From assembly GCA_031308135.1 (NCBI GenBank), contig JAHLJT010008756.1, positions 108,404,453-108,468,452 of the forward strand: a DNA stretch of 64,000 nucleotides, written 5' to 3'. The position numbers were made by a program, and so were the translations under genes. The stretch is from Acheta domesticus (taxonomy: Eukaryota; Arthropoda; Insecta; Orthoptera; Gryllidae). Positions 9,666-63,900 of this stretch are shown here, piece by piece. The notes beneath the pieces were generated by a model. That model was not told the origin of the DNA, made no database searches, and was given only the letters and a program-made list of their open reading frames with translations. Position 1 is the stretch's first letter, and each line of letters starts with the position of its first letter.

Positions 9666-9809
9666 TTGTCGATCCGAGAAGTATGCTCATGCAATTTAAC
9701 CGTCTATAATATCAAGTAATTATATTAATTTCACCCACAGTTGCAATCTGCACGTCTCTGAACAGGTGGGCTAGTATCGAGAAGCGTCGAACCAGAAAAG
9801 TGTAACAGA

Positions 9810-11060
9810 ATGTTCAACATGTCCCTTTCTACAGATTTCGGTGTGAGAATCATTTCTTTGTGGAATTTAGACTCATTTCCAGAGTTTAGGGTCTTAGAAC
9901 GCTTCGAGGAATCTATACTTGTGACCGGAGATATACTTGTGAGCTTTGATGTCACCTCCCTGTTCACGATGGTTCCGGTCAGTGACGCAATCAGTATTGT
10001 GGAGGACAACCGCGGGAAACACCAGCTGCCGACGGAGTGGGCGAAACTAGTAGGGGTCTGCCTGTCTACCACCTTTTTCCAGTACAAACAAGATTTCTAT
10101 GCGCAGACTGAAGGCATTGCCATGGGCTCATCGCTCTCCCCGGTAGTGGCGAATCTTTTCATGGGAGCTTTTGAAGAACAGGCCCTCGATAACGCGCCTT
10201 TAAAACCCACGATCTGGCTCCGTTACGTCGATGACACTTTTGTCATCTGGCTCCATGGCCCGAGGCTCTACAAGATTTCCTTTCTCACCTAAACAGCATT
10301 CATCCTCGCATCTACTTCACCAGGGGAATCGAACTTCAGGGCAGGCTCCCATTCCTCGATGTGCTGGTCTCTGGAGGCCCTGATGGTACCCCCGGCCACT
10401 CCGTGTACCCCAAGCCCACCCACACAAACAGATATTTACACGTGGATTCACACCATCACCCTTCCACAAAGCGGGGAGTGCTCACAACCCTAACCCACCG
10501 GGCAGCCATCATCAGTGACAGAAACAATCTCAAAAAAGAAATAGAGACACTTAGAGAGACTTTCCTCGCCAACGGCTACAGCAGTTCCTCGATACATCGT
10601 GCCTTGAAGAACCTTAACGCAAGAGACGCAGCCACATCCAACACCACGAACGAGAAATCCAGCTCACCACAGAAGACGGCGCGACTCCCCTACATCCAAG
10701 GTGCCACAGGATCGGCAGGCTGCTTCGCAGATCCGACATCCGCCCGGTGTTCTACGCCCTCAACAGAATTGAGAGGAGCCTGGTCCAGGTGAAAGTCCGC
10801 CTTGACCCGTGTAATAACGCTGGGGTATATGAAATCCCGTGCAGTTATGGGCTAGCATAAATCGGTCAAACTGGTCGATCTGTAGAGGAACGCATGCGTG
10901 AACACATGCGCACTGACCGACTGAAAAACATCCACAAGTCGGCCCTAGCTCTATACGCCGCTGAAACCGGTCACCTTATTGAGTATAACAAGACCCGTAC
11001 TCTTTACTGTGAGGACCGTTGGTGGCCACGAGTCACGGCGTCATACGTCACGAGTCACGG
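9810..11060 (+). pseudogene. Penelope-like RT plus GIY-YIG endonuclease, broken
   Basis: Penelope-like elements copy themselves with a telomerase-related RT linked to a GIY-YIG nuclease. Seen in order: SFDVTSLFT (9948-9975, first RT Asp); EGIAMGSSLSPVVANLFM (about 10110-10163); and WLRYVDDTFVIW (about 10215-10251, catalytic YVDD). After a frameshift near 10258 come LPFLDVLVSGG (10349-10381), KPTHTNRYLH and SHHHPS (10411-10463). After a second shift near 10670-10700 comes the nuclease: GVYEIPC (10822-10842), then IGQTGRSVEERMREHM (10861-10908). In the second half of the signature the expected Tyr codon is TAA at 10858-10860, so the reading is GVY...*IG. The 5' part is missing. Two frameshifts plus this stop make it inactive as written. 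Confidence 0.88.
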
Positions 11061-11130: not shown

Positions 11131-13072
11131 GAGTTATAGACGGAGCTGAGAGCTTTAAATCCTAAGAAAGCTCGTGGCCCAGATGGTGTATCAGCAGCCC
11201 AACTGCGCGCTTTGGGCGGGCACGGAATCGAGTTTTTACTCGAGCTCCTGAATGTGTGCCTGGCGCGTGGATATTTTCCCAAGGCATGGAGATTAGCGAC
11301 CATCTCGCTATTACCAAAACCTGGCAAAAACAAATTACTCCCGAGCAGTTATAGACCAATTAGTCTACTCTCCATCTTAGAAAAGACGTTTGAGAGACTG
11401 ATTCTGTCGCGGTTGCAACAGGAAACACGTCGTCTCAACCTTTTCAGAGATGAACAATTTGGCTTCAGAGCTGGTCACAGCTCCGCGCAGCAGCTTACGC
11501 GGCATTGCATGGAGTTCGGCCTCGCCCTCGAGAGACGGCAAAATTTGCCTGCGGTCTTTCTGGACATGCGGTCGGCTTTCGACTCATGCGGGGTTGCTCG
11601 CGTGTCTCGCGGGGTTGGGGGTAAGCGACTGCTACCTCAGATTGATCGCGAGTTTCCTCTCTGACAGGCAGTTCAAAGTGCGAGTTAACAAAGTATATTC
11701 GTCCCTCAGACGAGCCGAGGCGGGCGTGCCTCAGGGGAGCGTTCTCTCTCCTACCCTCTTCGGCCATACGCTAATGACGCGCCGCTTCCTGCTGATAAAA
11801 GGACTGGTATTCAACGCTGCGGGCTCCTGATGTTCGCGGATGATTTTGCGTATTACGCGAAATCGGCGAACAATTAAGGCAGTCAATTAAATACTTAAGC
11901 GATTGTCTCGCCGCCCTTCCCGAATGGCTGAGTCGCTCCAAACGACTCGCTCTAAACCTAGGGAAATGTGTGGCTGTCAAATTCACTCGTAAGAGGGCAG
12001 ACCCCAAAGAAAGGGTGAGCTTGACGGGCACGCGTCTCCCATGGCAGAGCAAAGCGAGATATTTGGGCAGCGGTCTTCACTGGCATGCACACGCTCGATA
12101 TCTCGCTGCCAAAATCAAAATTAGAACCCTTCTTCTGAAGCCTTTTCTCCGATCACCCGACCTACACCTCTCCTTGAAGCGCCGCTTATTCACCGCGTGC
12201 GTGCGCCCCTTGTGGGAGTATGCATGTGAGATTTTCGCGGCTGCCCCTCCTTCTACTTTGTGGCCAATTCGGGTCGCAGAAAACAGAGCGGCGCGTCCGC
12301 ATATTCCCAATCTCCGACTTGACCGCACGCCTAAAACCGCTGACGTTTTCAGAATTTTAGGCGTACGAAACCACTTCCTGGCGGAGCTAAAGAAGCGGGC
12401 AAAGACGGCGCTCGTGAGGGCGCTGGGGCCATCTGCTCCACGCATCCTGCGCGAGACCGGCCTAGCGGCGAACAGCGGCGTGCACAGGGCCTTTGACAGA
12501 CGAAAGGGCCCACAGCGCGTCGCCTTCACCTTCCGCGCGCTGCCTCCCACGAGCTCTCTGAGCTGTGCGAAGCGGGGAAGCAGCAAGTGCGTGGGAGGCG
12601 ATCGCCGCTCATTGGAGCCGGAAACCGCGCGGAAACGCGTCTCGCCGGGCCGGAGCCGCCTGGCAACGAAGACGTCGCGGCGCCACGGACGCTTGAGTGA
12701 AGTCGGCGCCGTGGTGACTATAAGTGTTTGTAGTGTAAACAGTGCAGTGAAATGGTGTATGTGTGAGTATGAATGTATTTGTACATATAGTTTAAGAATG
12801 AATGTGAGTGTGAATGAAGAAAAAAATGGAAGAAGAAAACATGTACAATAAAAAGAACTTTTTTTTAGAAACCCCATAACAATTGTGTAAAACTAGCCAA
12901 TGCCCAAAGCGGCAGTTGCAGTAGTTTATTAGTTCTTAAGATAGTTATAACTAGTATTTTAGGACAGGCCCACTCCCTGCTGCATAAGCCCAACGGGCTG
13001 CAGCTAAAATGTACCCCCTGAACGTTAATAAACTCCTGCCTCTCCAGGGTAACTGGAGGGGAGGAATATTTT
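11131..13072 (+). mobile_element. Jockey/CR1-type LINE, 5'-truncated
   Basis: It contains an RT starting inside domain 1 and continuing to the C-terminal region (about 12450), then a long 3' untranslated stretch with 'acaataaaaag', 'ttaataaactcctg' and an A/T-rich end at about 13060-13075. No endonuclease or ORF1 is present, so it is 5'-truncated. It sits between two blocks of Penelope-like sequence. Confidence 0.75.
11143..12475 (+). pseudogene. LINE reverse transcriptase (Jockey/CR1-type), frameshifted
   Basis: The polymerase would copy LINE RNA at the target site. Motifs in order are LNPKKARGPDGVS (11155-11193); LPKPGK and SYRPISLLSILEKTFERLI (11310-11403); EQFGFRAGHSS (11453-11484); and AVFLDMRSAFD (11551-11583, catalytic Asp). 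After a shift near 11590 comes AGVPQGSVLSPTLF (11721-11760). After another, MFADDFAYYAKS (about 11831-11866) carries the F/YADD box. After a third near 11874, LPEWLSRSKRLALNLGKCV leads into the C-terminal region in the frame at 11970-12450. The frame just 5' of 11143 contains a stop, marking truncation. At least three frameshifts make it non-functional. The G+C content is well above the flanks. Confidence 0.85.
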
Positions 13073-13849: not shown

Positions 13850-14110
13850 TGCAATATCACTAAACACACCGACTTGAAAATTTGAATCACTGCTTATAAC
13901 GAAAATATGCCCAGATAAAACGGAAAACAATCCTAACAAGACATAGTCTTCACTATTCACAGTTGTTAGCACATGAGCGCCAAAATTGATTAAAATTTGA
14001 CGCCGTTCGTGTAATTCAATTATTTATAACTATCTTTGGCACTAACCAACAGCGCAAAACATACATTTCAAACGTCGCGCGCCGGAGATAGTCTAAATAA
14101 TTTTCCCAAA
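13850..14110 (+). repeat. Interspersed repeat related to family B interior
   Basis: The block 'gaatcactgcttataacga' followed by 'aaatat' and 'tcttcactattcac' matches 53548-53620 of family B copy 3. The block from about 13985 ('attgattaaaatttgacgcc', 'tttataac', 'ttggcactaa', 'acatacatttcaaac', 'gagatagt') matches 29140-29270. The three places therefore share parts of one longer ancestral element. Confidence 0.55.
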
Positions 14111-18760: not shown

Positions 18761-19985
18761 TAAATAAAGTGTCACAAATACAAGACACTGAATTGAAAAA
18801 GAAGAAGTTCCCAGAGCACCATTACTGAGCGGAGAGCGACGAGAAATCCCGGGAGAGAGACAAGGGCATACAGAGCGGAGGGCTGCCCCTGAAGCGACAT
18901 GGGAAGACTGGAGGTGGACGGCCGAGCGCGACGCAGCCCTAACTCACTTAACGCAGACTGCGTTAACGCGTCACTCGCTGAGGGTGACCTCTTTCCCGGA
19001 CGCCGCCAGCCCCGCCACGCCGGTCGCAGCGTTCGACCCGTCCAACCCTGCTATGGACGGCGGCGCCCAGCCTCATTGATTATCTCGTGATTTCTCGCGC
19101 GTCAACTAATATTATAATTATTCTCGTATGTTTAGCGCATGTTTTTAGCACGGGAGATGGCGGTGACTGTTGAGGCAGCGAATATAGCTTCAGATTAATG
19201 TGGCTGGGAGAGCTATGAATTGGGTTATGGCGAAACTAACATTCTGGAAAACGCTCGCTCGCTCGATCTCTGGACACACACAATGAACCCCTCTTATTAG
19301 AATATTATATGAAGGAATAAGCAACCATTGAATAAATCGTTCACCTTTTTACCTGTTTTCTCACGGAAAAGCAACCTCCTTTTTTGTTAATTTTTCTCCA
19401 ACAAGTTTCGATCGCTTCCCGCTTAAAAGGCTGTTATTCTTTGGCAGGAGACACTAGAACCAACTTTGAGAGCTTAACCTTTTCTCATAGAACGTCAATG
19501 CACGGTCATTACAACTTGTTCCCTGTGCGTAAAACAACTGCTCAGAAGTTCCTATTTCGGCGTTTGAATTTGGCGACAATGCTATTATAGGTTAAAAACG
19601 GAAATCTACATGCCGTTCTCTTGTGTACACAAGTGTTTTGCGGCGAGGGCCCAGTAGGAGCTGCCACCTGGCGAAGGGAGCTGAACTAACAAGTAGGTCC
19701 GCCAAATCCATTCCAAGACACTCAAGAGCAAAGACGTTTTTCCGTTACCAGCACGCAGGTTTTGGAGGGAATTTTTTACAAGTCCGACGCGGTAGTTTAA
19801 AATGCAAATTCTGAGCTGGTAATTAAGGCCAAAGATTGTTATTAAAAACCAATCGCCCGCCACAGCGCCAAATTTGAATCATTTTTTGATGCCAATGTGC
19901 CAACAGTGACCTTCCTCTGCTGTATGGTAAGTTCTCGCGCCCGACCCACATGACGGTTTGCGTGGATTTGCGTGGTTTGCGTGGA
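18761..19985. other. Spacer with a CpG-rich patch at 18820-19085
   Basis: The patch 18820-19085 is CpG-rich with short frames on both strands. The stretch 19600-19870 has balanced composition and looks repeat-like, but I cannot assign it to a family. Confidence 0.35.
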
Positions 19986-22356: not shown

Positions 22357-22690
22357 CGGGAGAGGTGGCTCAGGGAGCCAACTGATGTCAGTGCGAGCGC
22401 CTCTGACCGGTAGGGCCTAAGTTCGAGTCCCTACAGTGGCAGAATTTTCGAGTCTGGGTAGATAGTTGGGTCCAGTTGAGTCGCTGTCTGGAGGAGAATT
22501 CTAGTCGCTGTATGGAGGAGCATTCTAGAAGAGTCGCTGTCTGGAGGAGCATTCTAGCCGCTGTCTGCACAAGAATTCTAGAACTGTGATCGGTAGTTCT
22601 CCGTGGTCGGGGAAAAATCCCCGCTGGCGGTCGGTAGGTCGGCCCCGGAACTTGACATCCAGCGGGAGAAAAGCACCTCCACTCAGCTCT
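22357..22690 (+). mobile_element. tRNA-type SINE with internal VNTR expansion
   Basis: The head has an A-box-like TGGCTCAGGGA (22366-22376) and a B box GTTCGAGTCC (22421-22430), with flanks matching the SINE at 41863. The middle differs. The unit 'gtcgctgtctggaggag.att' plus 'ctag', single in the 41863 copy, is repeated about four times here (22480-22578). After 'gatcggtagttctccgtggt' the CA-rich middle part is missing, and the copy ends in the 'ccatccagcggg' block (here 'acatccagcggg') near 22670. Confidence 0.82.
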
Positions 22691-28300: not shown

Positions 28301-29139
28301 ACTATAAAAAAATGAGCATAGCTTTTCCATCGCAAGGCTTCAGTCACAAGGGCGGATGATTTTTAGAGGACCCGTCTCTCTGCAGTTCTCGCGTCCCATC
28401 TGCTTGTGTACTCATGTAGCCCATTTTGTGTGAAATACACTTATAAAACTGACGTGGCAGGTCCACTGTTAACTCTCAATTTTCAAAACTTGCAAAAGTT
28501 TGAATTTTTCCGGCGTCCTTCCTACAACTACAGAACTGTAGATAGAGATTTTTCCTTCAAGTAAAATTGTTTTTTTCATAATTAGTTCTTTCTTTAAGAT
28601 CATGCACATTTTTTGAAAATGTGAGTAGTTTTCGCGCAACACTAGGTGCAATATGCGAAATTTTTAAAACAATAGCATAAATATGCTTGTGGCAAAAAAG
28701 ACTTCAATTTTTTTCTTTAAACTCTTGGAAAGGATAGTGCTAAATTTACTGTATAAGATGACATAAACATCATTCTGGTCCAATAGTTTTTGTTCTTTCA
28801 AAAATGACAAAAATATACTTTTTTGACATCTCCTTCGCATTGTTAATATTTATATTAGCGGAGATATTTTTTTCATTATTGCATATATGAGTACATGTTT
28901 TCTAATGTCTTATAATGTTTCTTGAAAATTCAAAACTTTTCAGTCAAATGAGCTCAAATTTCCGCATTGTCATATATTCACAATAACAGCCAGTGGTAAC
29001 ACACCTAGGGCCCACCACCTTTCAATTGTAGCAAAAATCAGAATTTTCACAATAAACACAAAACGTTTCAGAGAATGAAGTTTTATGTTCATTATGTACA
29101 CTTAAATGTTCAGGTGGATTGTGTTGGCACTTAGGGAAC
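25346..29139. other. Long AT-rich spacer
   Basis: No supported gene or mobile element is seen over about 3.8 kb. The stretch 27560-27930 is less extreme in composition and has many TAAT/ATTA cores. An inverted pair GGTTCTAATGATC...GATCATTAGAACC lies at 27090-27169. Confidence 0.4.
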
Positions 29140-29270
29140 CAAATTAAATCAAATTTGGCGCAGAACCTGGAATTCAATCATTTATAACAATTCTTTGGCG
29201 CTAATTAACATCGAAGAACATACATTTCAAACCTTGTCGCTCCCGAGATAGTTAACTTTTCCCCCCTCAA
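29140..29270 (+). repeat. Interspersed repeat shared with 13985-14105
   Basis: The blocks 'aatttggcgc', 'aattcaatcatttataac', 'tttggcgctaa', 'acatacatttcaaac' and 'gagatagtta' occur in the same order and spacing at 13985-14105. The copies are diverged and contain no ORF. Confidence 0.55.
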
Positions 29271-29488
29271 AAGCCGCCGACTACATTCAGAGTAAAAAAG
29301 AGTTTCATTCCTCTTTTAAAACGGCTTTGAAACTGCTTTCTGAGATGGTTGTAAGATCTCGCCGCATCCCAAGCATTGGGAGCCCAGCGAACTTATACGT
29401 AGAACATGCTTCACGGCTAGCTGCCATTCAATAGTGTTCTTGTACGAGGTAGTCTCTTCCTCGGTGCAACACCGTCGGTGCAGCCTGT

Positions 29489-29517
29489 CTGATGAGTCCT
29501 GATCGAGAACGAAACGC
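29489..29517 (+). ncRNA. Hammerhead ribozyme relic, copy B (5' half lost)
   Basis: The core CTGATGA (29489-29495), a 15-base stem-II segment (29496-29510, GTCC...GAAC, one C-A mismatch) and GAAA (29511-29514) followed by CGC are all present. The 5' part that would carry the cleavage-site GUC and stem I has been removed by the roughly 85-base deletion relative to the right arm. GCCTGT of stem I is still there just before the core. It is probably inactive. Confidence 0.65.
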
Positions 29518-29560
29518 TTTTACTACCCTAACTGCTCATCCTTTGCGCCTCTGCGCATTT

Positions 29561-29630
29561 GAGAAAAAGGGTATAGCGGCGTGTGCCGTATTCCACCTAT
29601 CGCACAAGTGTGCGTTGCAGGGTGACCCTA
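29561..29630. other. Three-hairpin linker, copy 1
   Basis: It lies between the inner inverted arms and contains three successive self-complementary blocks: a GGCGTGTGCC-centred stem (about 29577-29594), CGCACAAGTGTGCG (29601-29614, perfect) and CAGGGTGACCCTA (29618-29630). The same three recur in the same order at 30092-30150, which points to a selected RNA or DNA structure and not to chance. Confidence 0.6.
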
Positions 29631-29669
29631 GCGCAGAGGCGCAAAGGATGAGCAGTTTAGGGTAGTAAA

Positions 29670-29722
29670 AGCGTTTCCTTCTAGTTCAGGACTTATCAGA
29701 CAGGCTTCCAGCCTGTGACGCT
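29670..29722 (-). ncRNA. Hammerhead ribozyme, copy A (G8 mutated)
   Basis: On the minus strand, 5' to 3': stem III strand AGCG then UC (cleavage after C, at 29717); stem I hairpin ACAGGCU-GGA-AGCCUGU (29716-29700, seven perfect pairs); core CUGAUAA (29699-29693); stem II region (29692-29678); GAAA then CGCU. The core should be CUGAUGA: the base at position 8, the catalytic G, is A here, and stem II is poorly paired. Cleavage is therefore not expected, although the fold is recognisable. The order GUC, stem I, core, stem II, GAAA, stem III is a type III layout with a stem III of about five pairs. Confidence 0.75.
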
Positions 29723-30091
29723 GCATGAACAATATGCTCTGTAGGTTCGTACACTCGATGCGCCAAGTAAGTTACGGTTATGCAACGATGTTGCACCCAG
29801 CAGGCAGCGGACAGTATTGCACCGAGGAAGAGACCTACCTCGTGCAAGAACGCTACTCAACGGCAGCTAGCCGTGAAGCATGTTCTACGCAGCGACGCTA
29901 ACACACGCGTTAAGTATGAAGAAACGTCAGTCACGCGGTTCAAGTCCGCGTCTGAAGGGTCGAAACACAAGACGAATCTTACTGGAAAGTTGGTCTCCTG
30001 GCCTATATGTTCACTCGGTCAACGACCAGCGGATGTAGAAGAAGGGTTTTACCTTTCAACTGCTCTCATCTTTTCTCATCGAGGAAAAAGT

Positions 30092-30150
30092 GGATAACGG
30101 CGTGTGCCGTATCCACCTACCGCACAAGTGTGCGTGCAGGGTGACCCTGG
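30092..30150. other. Three-hairpin linker, copy 2
   Basis: GTGGATAACGGCGTGTGCCGTATCCAC is a long near-palindrome (written here in parts: GTGGATAACGGC, GTGT, GCCGTATCCAC). It is followed by CGCACAAGTGTGCG and CAGGGTGACCCTG. The arms are better matched than in copy 1, suggesting that this copy is closer to the ancestral form. It lies 3' of hammerhead copy C on the minus strand. Confidence 0.6.
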
Positions 30151-30179
30151 CGCAAAGGATGAGCAGTTAGGGTAGTTAA

Positions 30180-30233
30180 AGCGTTTCGCCCTAGTTCAGG
30201 ACTCATCAGGACAGGCTTCCAGCCTGTGACACT
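30180..30233 (-). ncRNA. Hammerhead ribozyme, copy C (intact core)
   Basis: On the minus strand, 5' to 3': AGUGUC with predicted cleavage after the C at 30228; stem I ACAGGCU-GGA-AGCCUGU (30227-30211); one extra C (30210); core CUGAUGA (30209-30203); stem II GUCC-UGAACUA-GGGC (30202-30188, four pairs with one G-U); GAAA (30187-30184); stem III strand CGCU. Stem III pairs as A-U, C-G, G-U, C-G, U-A. All core residues are present. The extra C between stem I and the core may weaken activity. Compared with copy A, one stem III pair changes from G-C to G-U, so pairing is kept. Confidence 0.8.
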
Positions 30234-30260
30234 GTATGAGCGAACTTGTGCGTTTTTGTC

Positions 30261-31339
30261 GGCAGGTTCCCAACAATCAGGTTTTTCCACATAAGATGCG
30301 ATGGGATTGCATTTTTGGAGAATCTGCAGACGATCAGTCTCCTGGCAGATCACCTTGCTAGCGTAAAAGCTAAGAATACTATTGTCTGCACTGAAGGTTG
30401 TATTACTTCGTAAAATTGGTAATCGTATTCGGAGGCCACAAGCGATATATTCGCCATGCAACAAGAGTGTTGGTGAGAGAATTGGCTTGTGAATTTCATA
30501 AACAATGAGAGTCAGATAGATCAGTAGAACAGATAGAATCAGAAAGCAAAAGGTTTCGTTTTTTACCCAACAATTTCTTCAATCAATACTTCATAATCCT
30601 TTAGCGGAGATATGCTAACAACCTTAATACTTGTCGTTTCACAACCTTCCGTTGTGTCAAAGGTTTAGAAAGATTAGTGAAAGATGTTCAGCACGAAATC
30701 TTCAGAAGCTCTTCCAAAAACTCAAGCTATATTCGCAGCCTCATCAGCTGGACTTCTCTAAAGGTAGCCAAAATTTCTTCCTTCAGTATCTTCATTTATT
30801 GATACAAGAAATGATTATTTGTGAAAAATTATATTGATAGAGTACAATAAATTGTTTTTCGGTTCTCATGATCGTGTATGCCCAATACACGCAAATGGAT
30901 GTCAGTATGGGTCTAATTAATATATTTATTTTCGATCATCAATTTTGGATGTTAACAACTACTCACTTTCTCTTAGCATCATAATACACAGCGTATAATA
31001 ATTTTCCACAAGTTATAAATTCTTTAAATTATGGTACTTACGTAAACGATGGTCGCCCCTCTAGTTCAGAGGAACCGAACATACTAATCAATAACAGTTA
31101 TGTGTTTCCCTCACCTCCATCATTCATAGTGGTTGCAAAACATGACAAATTACATTAAATTAAATACCAAATGAATGAATTATTTTAAAACTTCCTTCAA
31201 AATGAAATCTAGCCAAATATAAAATATCTATTATGTAGCTATTAGTCGTAACAGTTGTGAACGAGGGATGAAAAGAGGGTGAGTGAGGAGAGAACACAAA
31301 TAGGCACCGATAACGGTACCGCAAGGACAGATGCGAGAG
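30261..31339. other. AT-rich spacer
   Basis: No recognised gene or repeat. Confidence 0.4.
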
Positions 31340-32696: not shown

Positions 32697-33696
32697 NNNN
32701 NNNNNNNNNNNNNNNNNNNNNNNNNNNNNNNNNNNNNNNNNNNNNNNNNNNNNNNNNNNNNNNNNNNNNNNNNNNNNNNNNNNNNNNNNNNNNNNNNNNN
32801 NNNNNNNNNNNNNNNNNNNNNNNNNNNNNNNNNNNNNNNNNNNNNNNNNNNNNNNNNNNNNNNNNNNNNNNNNNNNNNNNNNNNNNNNNNNNNNNNNNNN
32901 NNNNNNNNNNNNNNNNNNNNNNNNNNNNNNNNNNNNNNNNNNNNNNNNNNNNNNNNNNNNNNNNNNNNNNNNNNNNNNNNNNNNNNNNNNNNNNNNNNNN
33001 NNNNNNNNNNNNNNNNNNNNNNNNNNNNNNNNNNNNNNNNNNNNNNNNNNNNNNNNNNNNNNNNNNNNNNNNNNNNNNNNNNNNNNNNNNNNNNNNNNNN
33101 NNNNNNNNNNNNNNNNNNNNNNNNNNNNNNNNNNNNNNNNNNNNNNNNNNNNNNNNNNNNNNNNNNNNNNNNNNNNNNNNNNNNNNNNNNNNNNNNNNNN
33201 NNNNNNNNNNNNNNNNNNNNNNNNNNNNNNNNNNNNNNNNNNNNNNNNNNNNNNNNNNNNNNNNNNNNNNNNNNNNNNNNNNNNNNNNNNNNNNNNNNNN
33301 NNNNNNNNNNNNNNNNNNNNNNNNNNNNNNNNNNNNNNNNNNNNNNNNNNNNNNNNNNNNNNNNNNNNNNNNNNNNNNNNNNNNNNNNNNNNNNNNNNNN
33401 NNNNNNNNNNNNNNNNNNNNNNNNNNNNNNNNNNNNNNNNNNNNNNNNNNNNNNNNNNNNNNNNNNNNNNNNNNNNNNNNNNNNNNNNNNNNNNNNNNNN
33501 NNNNNNNNNNNNNNNNNNNNNNNNNNNNNNNNNNNNNNNNNNNNNNNNNNNNNNNNNNNNNNNNNNNNNNNNNNNNNNNNNNNNNNNNNNNNNNNNNNNN
33601 NNNNNNNNNNNNNNNNNNNNNNNNNNNNNNNNNNNNNNNNNNNNNNNNNNNNNNNNNNNNNNNNNNNNNNNNNNNNNNNNNNNNNNNNNNNNNNNN
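32697..33696. other. Assembly gap (exactly 1000 N)
   Basis: The round length indicates a scaffolding placeholder of unknown true size. Any feature reading through it is meaningless. Confidence 0.99.
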
Positions 33697-41862: not shown

Positions 41863-42432
41863 ACCGGGAGAGATGGCTCAATGCATCAACCTGATGTCAC
41901 TGCAGTCCCTCTGACCGGGAGGTCCTAGGTTCGAGTCCCGAGGGCGGCAGGATTGTCGACACTAGCTTGTCAGCTAGGTCGAATTCAGTCGCTGTCTGGA
42001 GGAGAATTCTAGCGACCGGCTGCTCTGATCGGTAGTTTTCCGTGGTTTCTCCGATCAACACCAGGCGAATGCCGGAGCAGTACCCTAACAAACGGGTCAC
42101 AGACCTCGCGCGATCTTTTCTTCCTCCTCCGTGTCCTATCCTCTCCTCTTACACACACACACACTTACACTAACATGCACTACACTACCACGCATGCCGG
42201 GAGACCGGTCGGGATCTTACCGCTTGTTCCGGCTGGGACCGTGCCCTCTGGTGGGAGATATCTGGTTAAGGGGAAAACCCAGCTAGTCGATGGCAGGTCG
42301 GCGCCAGATCTCGCCATCCAGTGGGGTAAAGATCATCACCACCTCCCGAGAAAAACACACACTACACTTACGGGACTAATGACCTAAGAAGTTGACGCGC
42401 CCGAAGACACGAATCAATCAATCAATCAACAA
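41863..42432 (+). mobile_element. Full-length tRNA-derived SINE with target-site duplication
   Basis: The head is tRNA-like: A box TGGCTCAATGC (41874-41884) and a perfect B box GGTTCGAGTCC (41928-41938), so RNA polymerase III could transcribe it. The body has a 'gtcgctgtctggaggagaat' unit, a C/T-rich part, a CA-rich part (42145-42175) and a 'ccatccagtggggtaaag' block. It ends in an (AATC)n tail at about 42411-42428. The 8-base direct repeat ACGTCCAC flanks it at 41855-41862 and 42433-42440. It is the reference copy for the five partial copies in this window. Confidence 0.9.
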
Positions 42433-49599: not shown

Positions 49600-50425
49600 G
49601 CGGCGGGTGGAGCTCGAGCATGCGCCTCAGCGCAACACTAATTTCTCCGAAACGACGCCAAAGTCCAACGTCTCAAGACACCGGCGCAGAAACGCCTTCA
49701 ACCATTCCACCTCCAGATACCGTCACCAGCACAACTGCTTCCCAAAAAGTTCACTCTCTCAGTCTCTGCTCACACTTCCACAACGGAGGTAGCTGTGGTG
49801 GTGGCGTTGGGGGCTTTTGTTGATAGTGTTCGTAGTGATGATGGCGATGGTGTTGGTGGTGGTCGAGGCGAATATTGTGATGGTGTTGTTGTTGGCATTA
49901 CGTATGGTGATAAGGAGGCGGTGGTACTGGTGGTGACGGCAGGGACGGTGGTAGAGAAAGCAGGTTCGAAGGCGTGGCTAAAGGCTTGCGTGGAGGCGGG
50001 AGTAGCGTGGTTGGTAGTGGTGTTGGTGGAGGGGATGGGTGTGGCGGTGGCGCGGTTGGCAGCGGGAAGGGTGCAAAGATTTGACGAGGGTTGCTGTGGT
50101 TGTGAATCGGGAGTGGCGGCGGGGGCAGTGGCGATGGCAGAGGAGGGGGTGGGGTGCCGGGAGGCGCCGTAATCCGAAGGAGCCCTGCAAATGAGAGCCC
50201 GTGGCATTACGGGCGAAGCCTCGGCCTGTGCCGCCGTTGCCCCAAGGGCTTTCGTCAAGCGCCCCCCGCCCCGCCGAGGAGGATTTTGAGGACGCAACGC
50301 GCAGTGCAGGGCGAGGAGCGGCTGCTCCGCAGGAGATGCGGCGGCGCACGGCGCGAATACAACAGACGCGAGTTCCGCCGCGCGGCAGTCACACACGTGA
50401 GGGCAAGTGAATCGTTCACATGTTG
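49600..50425. other. CpG-rich island with GT/TGG-rich tract
   Basis: The segment 49790-50150 is G+T-rich (GGTGGTGG-type). It yields a Val/Gly frame on plus and a 208-codon Thr/Pro/Ser/Ala frame on minus (49770-50396), both explained by composition. The segment 50160-50390 is CpG-rich. It may be a promoter or an exon of a low-complexity protein; I cannot support either. Confidence 0.4.
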
Positions 50426-50487
50426 ACTGAAAAGTGAAAGACCCAAATCACTTACCACTGAAAAGTGAAAGACCCAAATCACACCTT
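50426..50487. repeat. Two tandem 31-base units
   Basis: 'actgaaaagtgaaagaccca' plus 'aatcac' occurs at 50426 and again at 50457, a 31-base direct duplication. Confidence 0.85.
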
Positions 50488-50489
50488 AT

Positions 50490-51240
50490 CATTTAATAAT
50501 AGCCCCCGAGGTGCCCGTTTTTTTTAGTATAGCACCACGGGATCTCCCCTGTCGTAAAAGGTGACTAACAGGAGCAGCTGTCCGCCGTCCCTCCATCTAG
50601 AATTCATCCATCTTTCATTCTCCATTCCTTTTTACTCTGTACCCTCTATTCCTTTGCCAAAATGTTAACTTAGCTGTTCCTTGACTGTTTTCCCGTTTCT
50701 GTTTCCAAAATATTCCCTATCGATTTCACCCTTTTATTTACAGTCCCCTAAGACCACCTCTACGTGAACTGAGAGAACAGTGGCACGTGGAGGACGGGCA
50801 AAAGCACTATTGAGTGTCGGCTATCAAGGCAATGGCGACCCGCCAAATCGGATGTCTGTCTGTTCTTCTGGGAGCTGGAAGGTGTTCCTGTGTCCGTGAC
50901 TTCCGGGAATAGGAACGGCGAACCAACTGGCAACTGGGACATAGGGCACCATCCGAAATAGCCACCCCTAGGTTTTGCGGGCTGTAGGTGCCTGAACTTC
51001 GTCCTTAGTCGTTGAGTCAGCGTGACCAGATGGGGCTCTGGTTCAGAGGCGAGAGGTGCTTCACCTCTTGACTCTTACCAGGTCCGCCGGTGGAGAAGCA
51101 GTTATGAGAAATCGAAGGATTCGTGATGCATGCGACCCGCACTTGCCTCTCCCAGTTGAGGGTCGTAAAGTTTAAAAGGCAGATATCTATCCAGAACATC
51201 ACAAAGAAATTCCAAACTGCATCAGGATCCACTCCAAATG
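50490..51240 (+). mobile_element. Probable LINE 5' region
   Basis: The opening 'ccacgggatctcccctgtcg' followed by 'taaaaggtgactaacagg' (50536-50574) is wording I associate with 5' regions of arthropod non-LTR elements. The composition is balanced and unlike the flanks, and a LINE 3' end in the same orientation lies at 51590-52153. I infer that both belong to one element with its middle missing and a Tc1 piece in between. No coding motif is seen in this part. Confidence 0.3.
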
Positions 51241-62784: not shown

Positions 62785-63900
62785 AAATCTTCGCTTGTTA
62801 TTTCGTTGTCGGACGATTCTCTTGAAGAATCTGAGAGAACTGGTCCTTCAGTTTCTTCATAATTCTGGTAAATCTTGATTTTATTCCTCTGTCAGACAGT
62901 AATGGGTATATTTCTTTAAGCATTTCAATTAGCTTCCCTGTTCTCTTTGGTATAACTGAGAGATATTTGAAGGGGATTACTTACACCGTATGTGTTTCCA
63001 GGAAGTCTTTTAGTTGATCGTACGTGAGTACATTGTTTGACCCTTCTATTCTTTCTTTCACTGGAGCTAGTTGCTCCACTATGCTCTTCTTAGTGCTGCC
63101 ACTACTAATGGGGTTCTCCCTAGCGACCTTCATTTTCTTTTTCTATTTTTGTTTGCCGCATCTTTAATTCTACCTTGGGGATGGTTAAATTGTCCTTCCT
63201 GAAGTTCACTCGATTCATTGGTGGGAACACTTGTGATCTGTGATAAGGCTCTCTTAACAGGATTGCCTTGGTCGAGTGGGGGGAATTCATGGTAACTGAG
63301 TACCTTGTCACTTTGTTCGTTGTCGGGGGAAACATTATTTTCAATTACGTCTTCTGATTGATTGGGGTTAACGTCTAAATTTTTGCAGTTTTTGGCAAAT
63401 GTGTCCTTCTTCCTTACAGTGAAAACACTTAATGATGCCGCTAGACATGTAAATCCAGTTTCTTTCTCCTTTGTATGTGATGAGTATGGCTCAGGTATCT
63501 TGCTTACTGAAATCTTCCGGTACGAACACTGTCTACGGAAACTTAAGATATGAGTGAACTCTCTTTACCGAAACCAGCTCTGAGAAATGACACTTGAGAA
63601 CTGCGTATCACTTTTAGTTTGTCTAGTTCATCTTCAATTACTGCGTTAGGAATCATAGGATAAACATTTGAAATACAATGCGCTTTTGCCTACTAACAAG
63701 AACGAATATTTTGAGAACCTTCAATAATATCTTGTACTTCTCGGTTACATCATCTACTAACTGTTTACTTCAAAATATACACACTCTATTATTTGAACTT
63801 TTTGAATGCATACGTGATGTGAATAGGTGAAACAATCATTGCAGTGCTTCTAACCGTTCGAGGGGTTGTGCTGTGGTCTTTGCCTCAAATATACCTTGTC
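62785..63900 (-). pseudogene. I-like LINE ORF1 (right copy)
   Basis: This is the same gag-like ORF1 as at 101-1017, here including the C-terminal part missing from the window's left copy. RENPISSGSTKKSIVEQLAP (about 63122-63063) leads into a charged C-terminus ending just before the ORF2 start. The zinc knuckle region (about 63388-63432) is present but a base is inserted next to it. Relative to the left copy there are many single-base gains and losses ('ggcttcagg' to 'ggctcagg' at 63487; 'acacttgtct' to 'acactgtct' at 63526). These destroy the frame repeatedly, whereas substitutions are few. Confidence 0.78.

Follow-up and report, generated by a model that had tools for sequence, protein, structure and literature searches.

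A worn type III hammerhead composite in Acheta domesticus with the arrangement of a retrozyme-like insertion

Retrozymes of animals carry type I hammerheads and consist of tandem monomers of 150-450 bp with a GC content below 50% and duplications of more than 4 bp; the hammerheads of Penelope elements are type I variants (both from the available part of PMC7229834). Plant retrozymes are described, in the portions of text available from two papers, as type III elements of about 700 bp with more than 55% GC, LTRs and 4-bp duplications (PMC7229834, PMC4918200). In Dolichopoda cave crickets the pDo500 repeat has a unit of ~500 bp with 35% T, 43% GC and a G-U pair in stem III (PMC2837043, PMC2808323, excerpts); its hammerhead topology seems to be type I, judging from the extended stem I in these descriptions. 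Isolated type III motifs are reported from termite and dipteran genomes in the accessible text of PMC7936874, which gives the usual type III helices as 6 bp with a loop of 6-8 nt for helix I and 4 bp with a loop of 4 nt for helix II. A review mentions type III hammerhead elements of bacteria or insects, with reference to one earlier publication and to a study then in preparation (PMC7761336, available part).

The window analyzed here is a stretch of 64,000 nucleotides of Acheta domesticus DNA. The original prediction had placed two hammerhead motifs on the minus strand (29670-29722 and 30180-30233) and a third, 5'-truncated one on the plus strand, and all three are present. They lie in one composite, the parts of which are the following.

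29386-29400, no strand: left copy of a 15-base direct repeat, a probable target-site duplication
29401-30238, minus strand: the composite as a whole, a probable insertion, its bounds accurate to roughly 3 bases and placed by the ends of arm and copy and by the flanking repeat
29398-29556, plus strand: inverted copy of 29631-29889 that lacks two segments, found by alignment
29482-29520, plus strand: hammerhead copy A, inverted and without the 5' half, recognized by its similarity to copies B and C
29563-29728, minus strand: direct copy with hammerhead B and a hairpin-rich segment, defined by similarity to 30084-30239
29670-29722, minus strand: hammerhead copy B, a degraded direct copy of C
29729-30083, minus strand: 355-base middle (hairpin arm, linker, arm a' and a further segment), defined by its position between the direct copies
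30036-30083, minus strand: native imperfect hairpin arm of unit C, which pairs with 30149-30185
30084-30239, minus strand: direct copy with hammerhead C and a hairpin-rich segment, defined by similarity to 29563-29728
30180-30233, minus strand: hammerhead copy C, type III topology (motif; the Rfam match covers 30178-30235)
30239-30253, no strand: right copy of the 15-base direct repeat, recognized by its identity to the left copy

The inverted arm ends at 29398 and the direct copy at 30239, giving a composite length of about 840 bases. On the minus strand, hammerhead C is followed by its hairpin-rich segment, the imperfect hairpin arm and the linker, and then by arm a', the further segment, hammerhead B with its hairpin-rich segment and finally the inverted copy. 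The direct copies 29563-29728 and 30084-30239 are 86% identical over 167 columns. Segment 29398-29476 is 90% complementary to 29810-29889 (80 columns), and 29482-29706 is self-complementary at 76% over 229 columns, its own middle included. The inverted arms and the direct partial unit had been predicted with a spacing of about 510 bases, which was borne out at 510-511 bases. The direct content of the composite is one full unit (~1.3 units), and no tandem array is found in the window.

None of the stop-to-stop frames of at least 120 codons lies inside the composite; a minus-strand frame of 153 codons (30117-30578) overlaps its right end, and nothing suggests that it is a gene. The unit 29729-30239 has 51.3% GC and 26% T, and the flanks of the composite have 32% and 42% GC. 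Folded as a circle, the 510-nt unit is compact (z -3.9 against 30 mononucleotide shuffles). A similarity of the linker 29890-30083 to 29707-29809 was rejected, since 222/300 and 238/300 shuffles scored equally well or better. A tRNA gene was likewise rejected (ARAGORN, 0). Inside the unit, the plus strand at 29933-29951, which is opposite to that of hammerheads B and C, contains a T-arm-like hairpin of 6 pairs with a B-box-like word; no A-box pattern was found just upstream of it, and such hairpins with at least 5 pairs and the B-box-like word occurred twice in 200 simulated windows.

Transposon fragments are frequent in the window. Reverse transcriptase fragments matching RVT_1 were found on the plus strand at 9762-10292 and 11140-11664; we take the first to be Penelope-type and the second to be LINE-like. 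Named matches of the 9762-10292 fragment come from two beetle species and a flatworm and those of a LINE endonuclease from beetle, ant and lobster; as evidence on the host, these transposon relatives make an arthropod likely. Two near-identical segments about 63 kb apart (11-646 and 63041-63674, 94-100% identity in pieces) lie over a zinc-knuckle frame and are apparently two copies of one LINE. A dispersed repeat at 22400-22504 and 41908-42012 (80% identity), the latter copy with a B-box-like word at 41928, is possibly a tRNA-derived SINE. Another one occurs at 29141-29252, 13983-14092 and 19795-19905 (79% and 70% identity), its copy at 29141-29252 ending about 150 bases left of the composite. 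An assembly gap of exactly 1000 N spans 32697-33696.

In copy C, the GUC triplet, whose C is at 30228, the 7-bp stem I capped by a GGA loop and the 5-pair stem III are all as originally predicted. One pair of stem III is G-U; CUGAUGA, GAAA and a stem II of 4-6 pairs complete the motif. The copy had been called intact, which does not hold, since one surplus C lies between stem I and the core: NUH, CUGANGA, GAAA, three stems and closed helices I and II are all there, and only the junction of stem I and core is not flush. In copy B this junction is flush; A replaces G8, and stem II (GUCC versus GAAG) forms 2 of 4 pairs. Copy A, the similarity of which starts at 29482 or 29489, retains CUGAUGA in full, and its junction is flush; stem II has a C-A mismatch, and the GUC triplet and the 5' strand of stem I are absent. 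The motifs stand, but the claim that the two minus-strand ones have every element of a hammerhead goes too far, each copy having a lesion. The three copies retain different canonical parts, and no copy is intact. The predicted cut lies between 30228 and 30227 in copy C and would fall between 29717 and 29716 in the degraded copy B, which places the predicted cut sites 511 nt apart. Read from the fold, helix I of copy C has 6-7 bp and a loop of 3-5 nt, and helix II has either 4 bp with a 7-nt loop or 6 bp with a 3-nt loop; these sizes do not agree with the usual type III sizes.

Rfam was searched with the 1.8 kb from 29000 to 30800 at E <=1. The type III family RF00008 matched copy C with 29.9 bits (E 7e-4), which falls below the curated gathering score of 48.5 bits for this family, and it matched copy A on the plus strand at 29469-29520 with 19 bits (E 0.83). 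No family besides RF00008 matched on 29000-30800 at this threshold. Copy B, queried with its own 101 bases, gave no Rfam hammerhead match even at E 10. The original prediction had proposed covariance models as a check and named the lack of a hit above threshold as speaking against it; since no Rfam family reached its gathering cut-off anywhere in the 64-kb window, the first part of this refutation formally applies.

A descriptor that demands flush junctions found no hammerhead in the window and, in 60 simulated windows, 2 loose matches and none with strict stems; it misses copy C because of the surplus C between stem I and CUGAUGA. When one surplus base was tolerated, copy C was the single site in the window and was assigned to type III, and 150 simulated windows yielded no type III and one type I site. 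With a looser core and a 2-pair stem II, an additional type I-like site appeared at 50420-50530, which we take for chance. At minimum energy, copy C folds into the three-way junction of a hammerhead, but the energy of this fold is unremarkable (z -0.82, 37/200 shuffles equal or better), and that of copy B has a z of -1.58 (10/200 shuffles equal or better). The motif is judged real on core, stems and related copies jointly and not on fold energy. The hammerheads are genuine but worn, and self-cleavage is at most hypothetical for each of the three copies.

Beyond the original prediction, we observed that a 15-base direct repeat bounds the whole composite. Its two copies are identical at 13/15 positions and overlap the similarity-defined ends of the composite by at most 3 bases. 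The repeat was spotted by eye and its significance computed afterwards: random pairs of 35-base flanks scored as well as those of the composite in 12/4000 and 13/4000 cases (two runs). For the flanks of the fold-back part alone, 1566/4000 random pairs were as good, and for those of the tandem part alone 1500/4000.

Substitutions amount to 11/155 between B and C, 4/75 between A and B, 7/79 between the arms a and a', 5/62 between A and C, and 2/15 in the flanking repeat. These similar divergences (5-9% for the copies, 2/15 for the flanking repeat) are compatible with a single event followed by drift. A hand count puts 5 of the 11 B-C substitutions inside the 53-nt motif and 6 in the 102 columns outside it, showing that the motif is kept no better than its surroundings; there is thus no support for local selection on the ribozyme.

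In unit C, the pairing of the segment behind the hammerhead with 30036-30083 reached a score attained by 2/1000 dinucleotide shuffles, and the comparison with the arm of copy A gave 1/1000. With mononucleotide shuffles and longer arms, four comparisons gave 0, 1, 11 and 11 of 300. Beyond this hairpin, unit C contains no antisense remnant of a hammerhead (72/1000 shuffles as good locally, 435/1000 globally; 421/500 globally for a longer stretch). The significant hairpin with no antisense hammerhead beyond it indicates that the short hairpin is native and that the long palindrome of the other unit is secondary. The simplest account of the inverted copy would be fold-back copying at the native hairpin. 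A ribozyme native to the opposite strand of the unit was rejected, because the plus-strand motif is an inverted copy and no antisense remnant was found.

We consider it probable, with moderate confidence, that the composite is a single old and decayed insertion of a non-coding, ribozyme-processed, retrozyme-like element, made by LINE-type machinery. Type III hammerheads would have cleaved a multimeric minus-strand transcript into units of 511 nt, although no present copy is canonical, and these units may have been closed into circles. From a tandem or circular template, a LINE-type reverse transcriptase would then have made the copy that entered the target, and the observed 15-base repeat would be the 15-bp target-site duplication left behind. 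The product would have been a full unit from hammerhead C to B and part of a second unit; the growing strand would have folded back at the hairpin of the unit and copied itself, giving the inverted copy. Copies and duplication would afterwards have drifted neutrally, with no visible selection. There is a precedent in Nematostella, where hammerhead repeats have LINE-like flanking duplications of 15 bp (PMC4918200, available part). In its favor are also the type III match and fold of copy C, the empty simulated windows, the spacing of the direct copies, the flanking repeat around the whole composite and not around its parts, the similar divergences and the native hairpin where the fold-back starts. 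Against this explanation speak the sub-gathering score, the lesion in each copy, the negative flush descriptor, the ordinary fold energies, the single full unit, the imperfection of a flanking repeat that was noticed by eye before it was scored, the lack of another copy in the 64 kb, the LTR-like layout, and the type I hammerheads, shorter monomers and lower GC content described for animal retrozymes. The original interpretation is supported in part: of the kinds of ribozyme-processed repeat that it named, a retrozyme or satellite remains the best reading, Penelope-like elements are a poor fit, and the proposed repeat family would have a single member in the window.

The composite could instead be a fragment of a pDo500-type tandem satellite with an embedded hammerhead, which was inverted later and never retrotransposed. 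This is unlikely, though it deserves some weight: a single hammerhead per unit of ~500 bp, with a stem III that includes a G-U pair, agrees with the available description of pDo500 (PMC2837043), and the direct copies are 511 nt apart, but the window holds only 1.3 direct units and no array, the flanking repeat bounds the whole composite, and the composition differs from that of pDo500 (26% T and 51% GC here versus 35% T and 43% GC). No further copies of the composite were found elsewhere in the 64-kb window. Exact patterns had 0 matches in viral_contigs and in genome_contigs, and distant blastn gave 100 records among phages (27 bases, E 0.9) and 5 among plasmids (28 bases, E 0.8). None of these collections is described as including animal genomes, and their results are therefore uninformative on a repeat family.

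The layout, in which a middle of 355 bases separates direct copies of 156-166 bases, is also like that of an LTR retrozyme. A plant-like element of this kind, rearranged after insertion, would account for type III hammerheads within direct repeats that bound a non-coding middle and for a GC content above that of the surroundings. We regard it as improbable, because the flanking repeat has 15 bases and not 4 (PMC4918200, excerpt), one of the direct repeats is non-terminal, and 51% GC and 511 nt compare with the >55% and ~700 bp stated in the available text of PMC7229834. A fold-back or MITE-type DNA transposon that acquired a hammerhead would explain arms (29398-29476 and 29810-29889) that are 90% complementary over 80 columns. 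However, the flanking repeat around 29398-29889 is no better than chance (1566/4000), and direct copy C lies outside the arms, so that little credence is left for such an origin.

Very little probability attaches to an origin from a circular RNA replicon of viroid-like or HDV-like kind, copied into DNA, that had ribozymes in both polarities. Hammerheads do occur on both strands, the 510-nt circle is compact (z -3.9), and an HDV-like RNA of termites has type III hammerheads (PMC7936874, available part); yet the plus-strand motif repeats the minus-strand one in inverted form, unit C has no antisense hammerhead remnant (72/1000, 435/1000, 421/500), no other ribozyme family matched on 29000-30800 at E <=1, and the unit has no long frame. 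That the hammerhead resemblance arose by chance is hardly credible: the Rfam score below cut-off, the negative flush descriptor and the ordinary fold energy would fit, but 150 simulated windows contained no type III site, E is 7e-4 over all Rfam families, and three related copies preserve different canonical parts.

If the composite is a retrozyme-like insertion, it may tentatively be assigned to an animal lineage with type III hammerheads, 511-nt units, about 51% GC, LINE-type insertion and hairpin-promoted inverted cDNA copies, which would bridge plant and animal retrozymes; we hold this to be possible rather than likely. Such a lineage is undescribed in the literature searched, and no type III retrozyme in an insect was among the literature matches listed, most subscription papers lying outside that search. 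If it is real, the unit, with its type III hammerheads and LINE-like duplication, would provide an element behind isolated type III motifs such as those of termites and dipterans, and would show that both ribozyme permutations moved by non-LTR retrotransposition in animals. It would furthermore offer a testable case of fold-back copying of a ribozyme-bearing cDNA.

Among the known systems, Penelope-like elements share with the locus the presence of hammerheads in mobile elements of animals, and a Penelope-type reverse transcriptase fragment, as we take it to be, lies in the same window. The hammerhead here is, however, outside an element that encodes reverse transcriptase. An association with Penelope was rejected, because 19 kb separate the end of the fragment from the locus and the available text describes the hammerheads of Penelope as type I variants (PMC7229834).

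Type III hammerheads in animals, as found here, are described for termite and dipteran genomes and for HDV-like RNAs of termites and a toad in the accessible part of PMC7936874. These have a long helix I in two parts with an internal loop, whereas in copy C helix I is a plain hairpin with 6-7 bp and a loop of 3-5 nt. With pDo500, the locus has in common the unit size of ~500 bp, the single hammerhead and the G-U pair of stem III, a likeness that was judged by the available published description. It differs in that the array of ~500-bp units is absent from the window and the base composition is unlike. Plant LTR retrozymes likewise have type III hammerheads in direct repeats around a non-coding middle; the composite is shorter and less GC-rich, one of its repeats is non-terminal, and it has a 15-base flanking repeat in place of a 4-bp duplication.

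From the non-LTR retrozymes of animals, the locus differs in its type III rather than type I hammerheads, its unit of 511 nt versus 150-450, its 51.3% versus <50% GC, and its mere 1.3 direct units with an inverted copy. Since hammerhead type, size and GC content all disagree, we do not file the composite as an animal retrozyme. What it shares with them is a non-coding unit between directly repeated hammerheads and a putative target-site duplication longer than 4 bp (13/15 identical, at one locus), and its layout and flanking repeat resemble those of an animal retrozyme.
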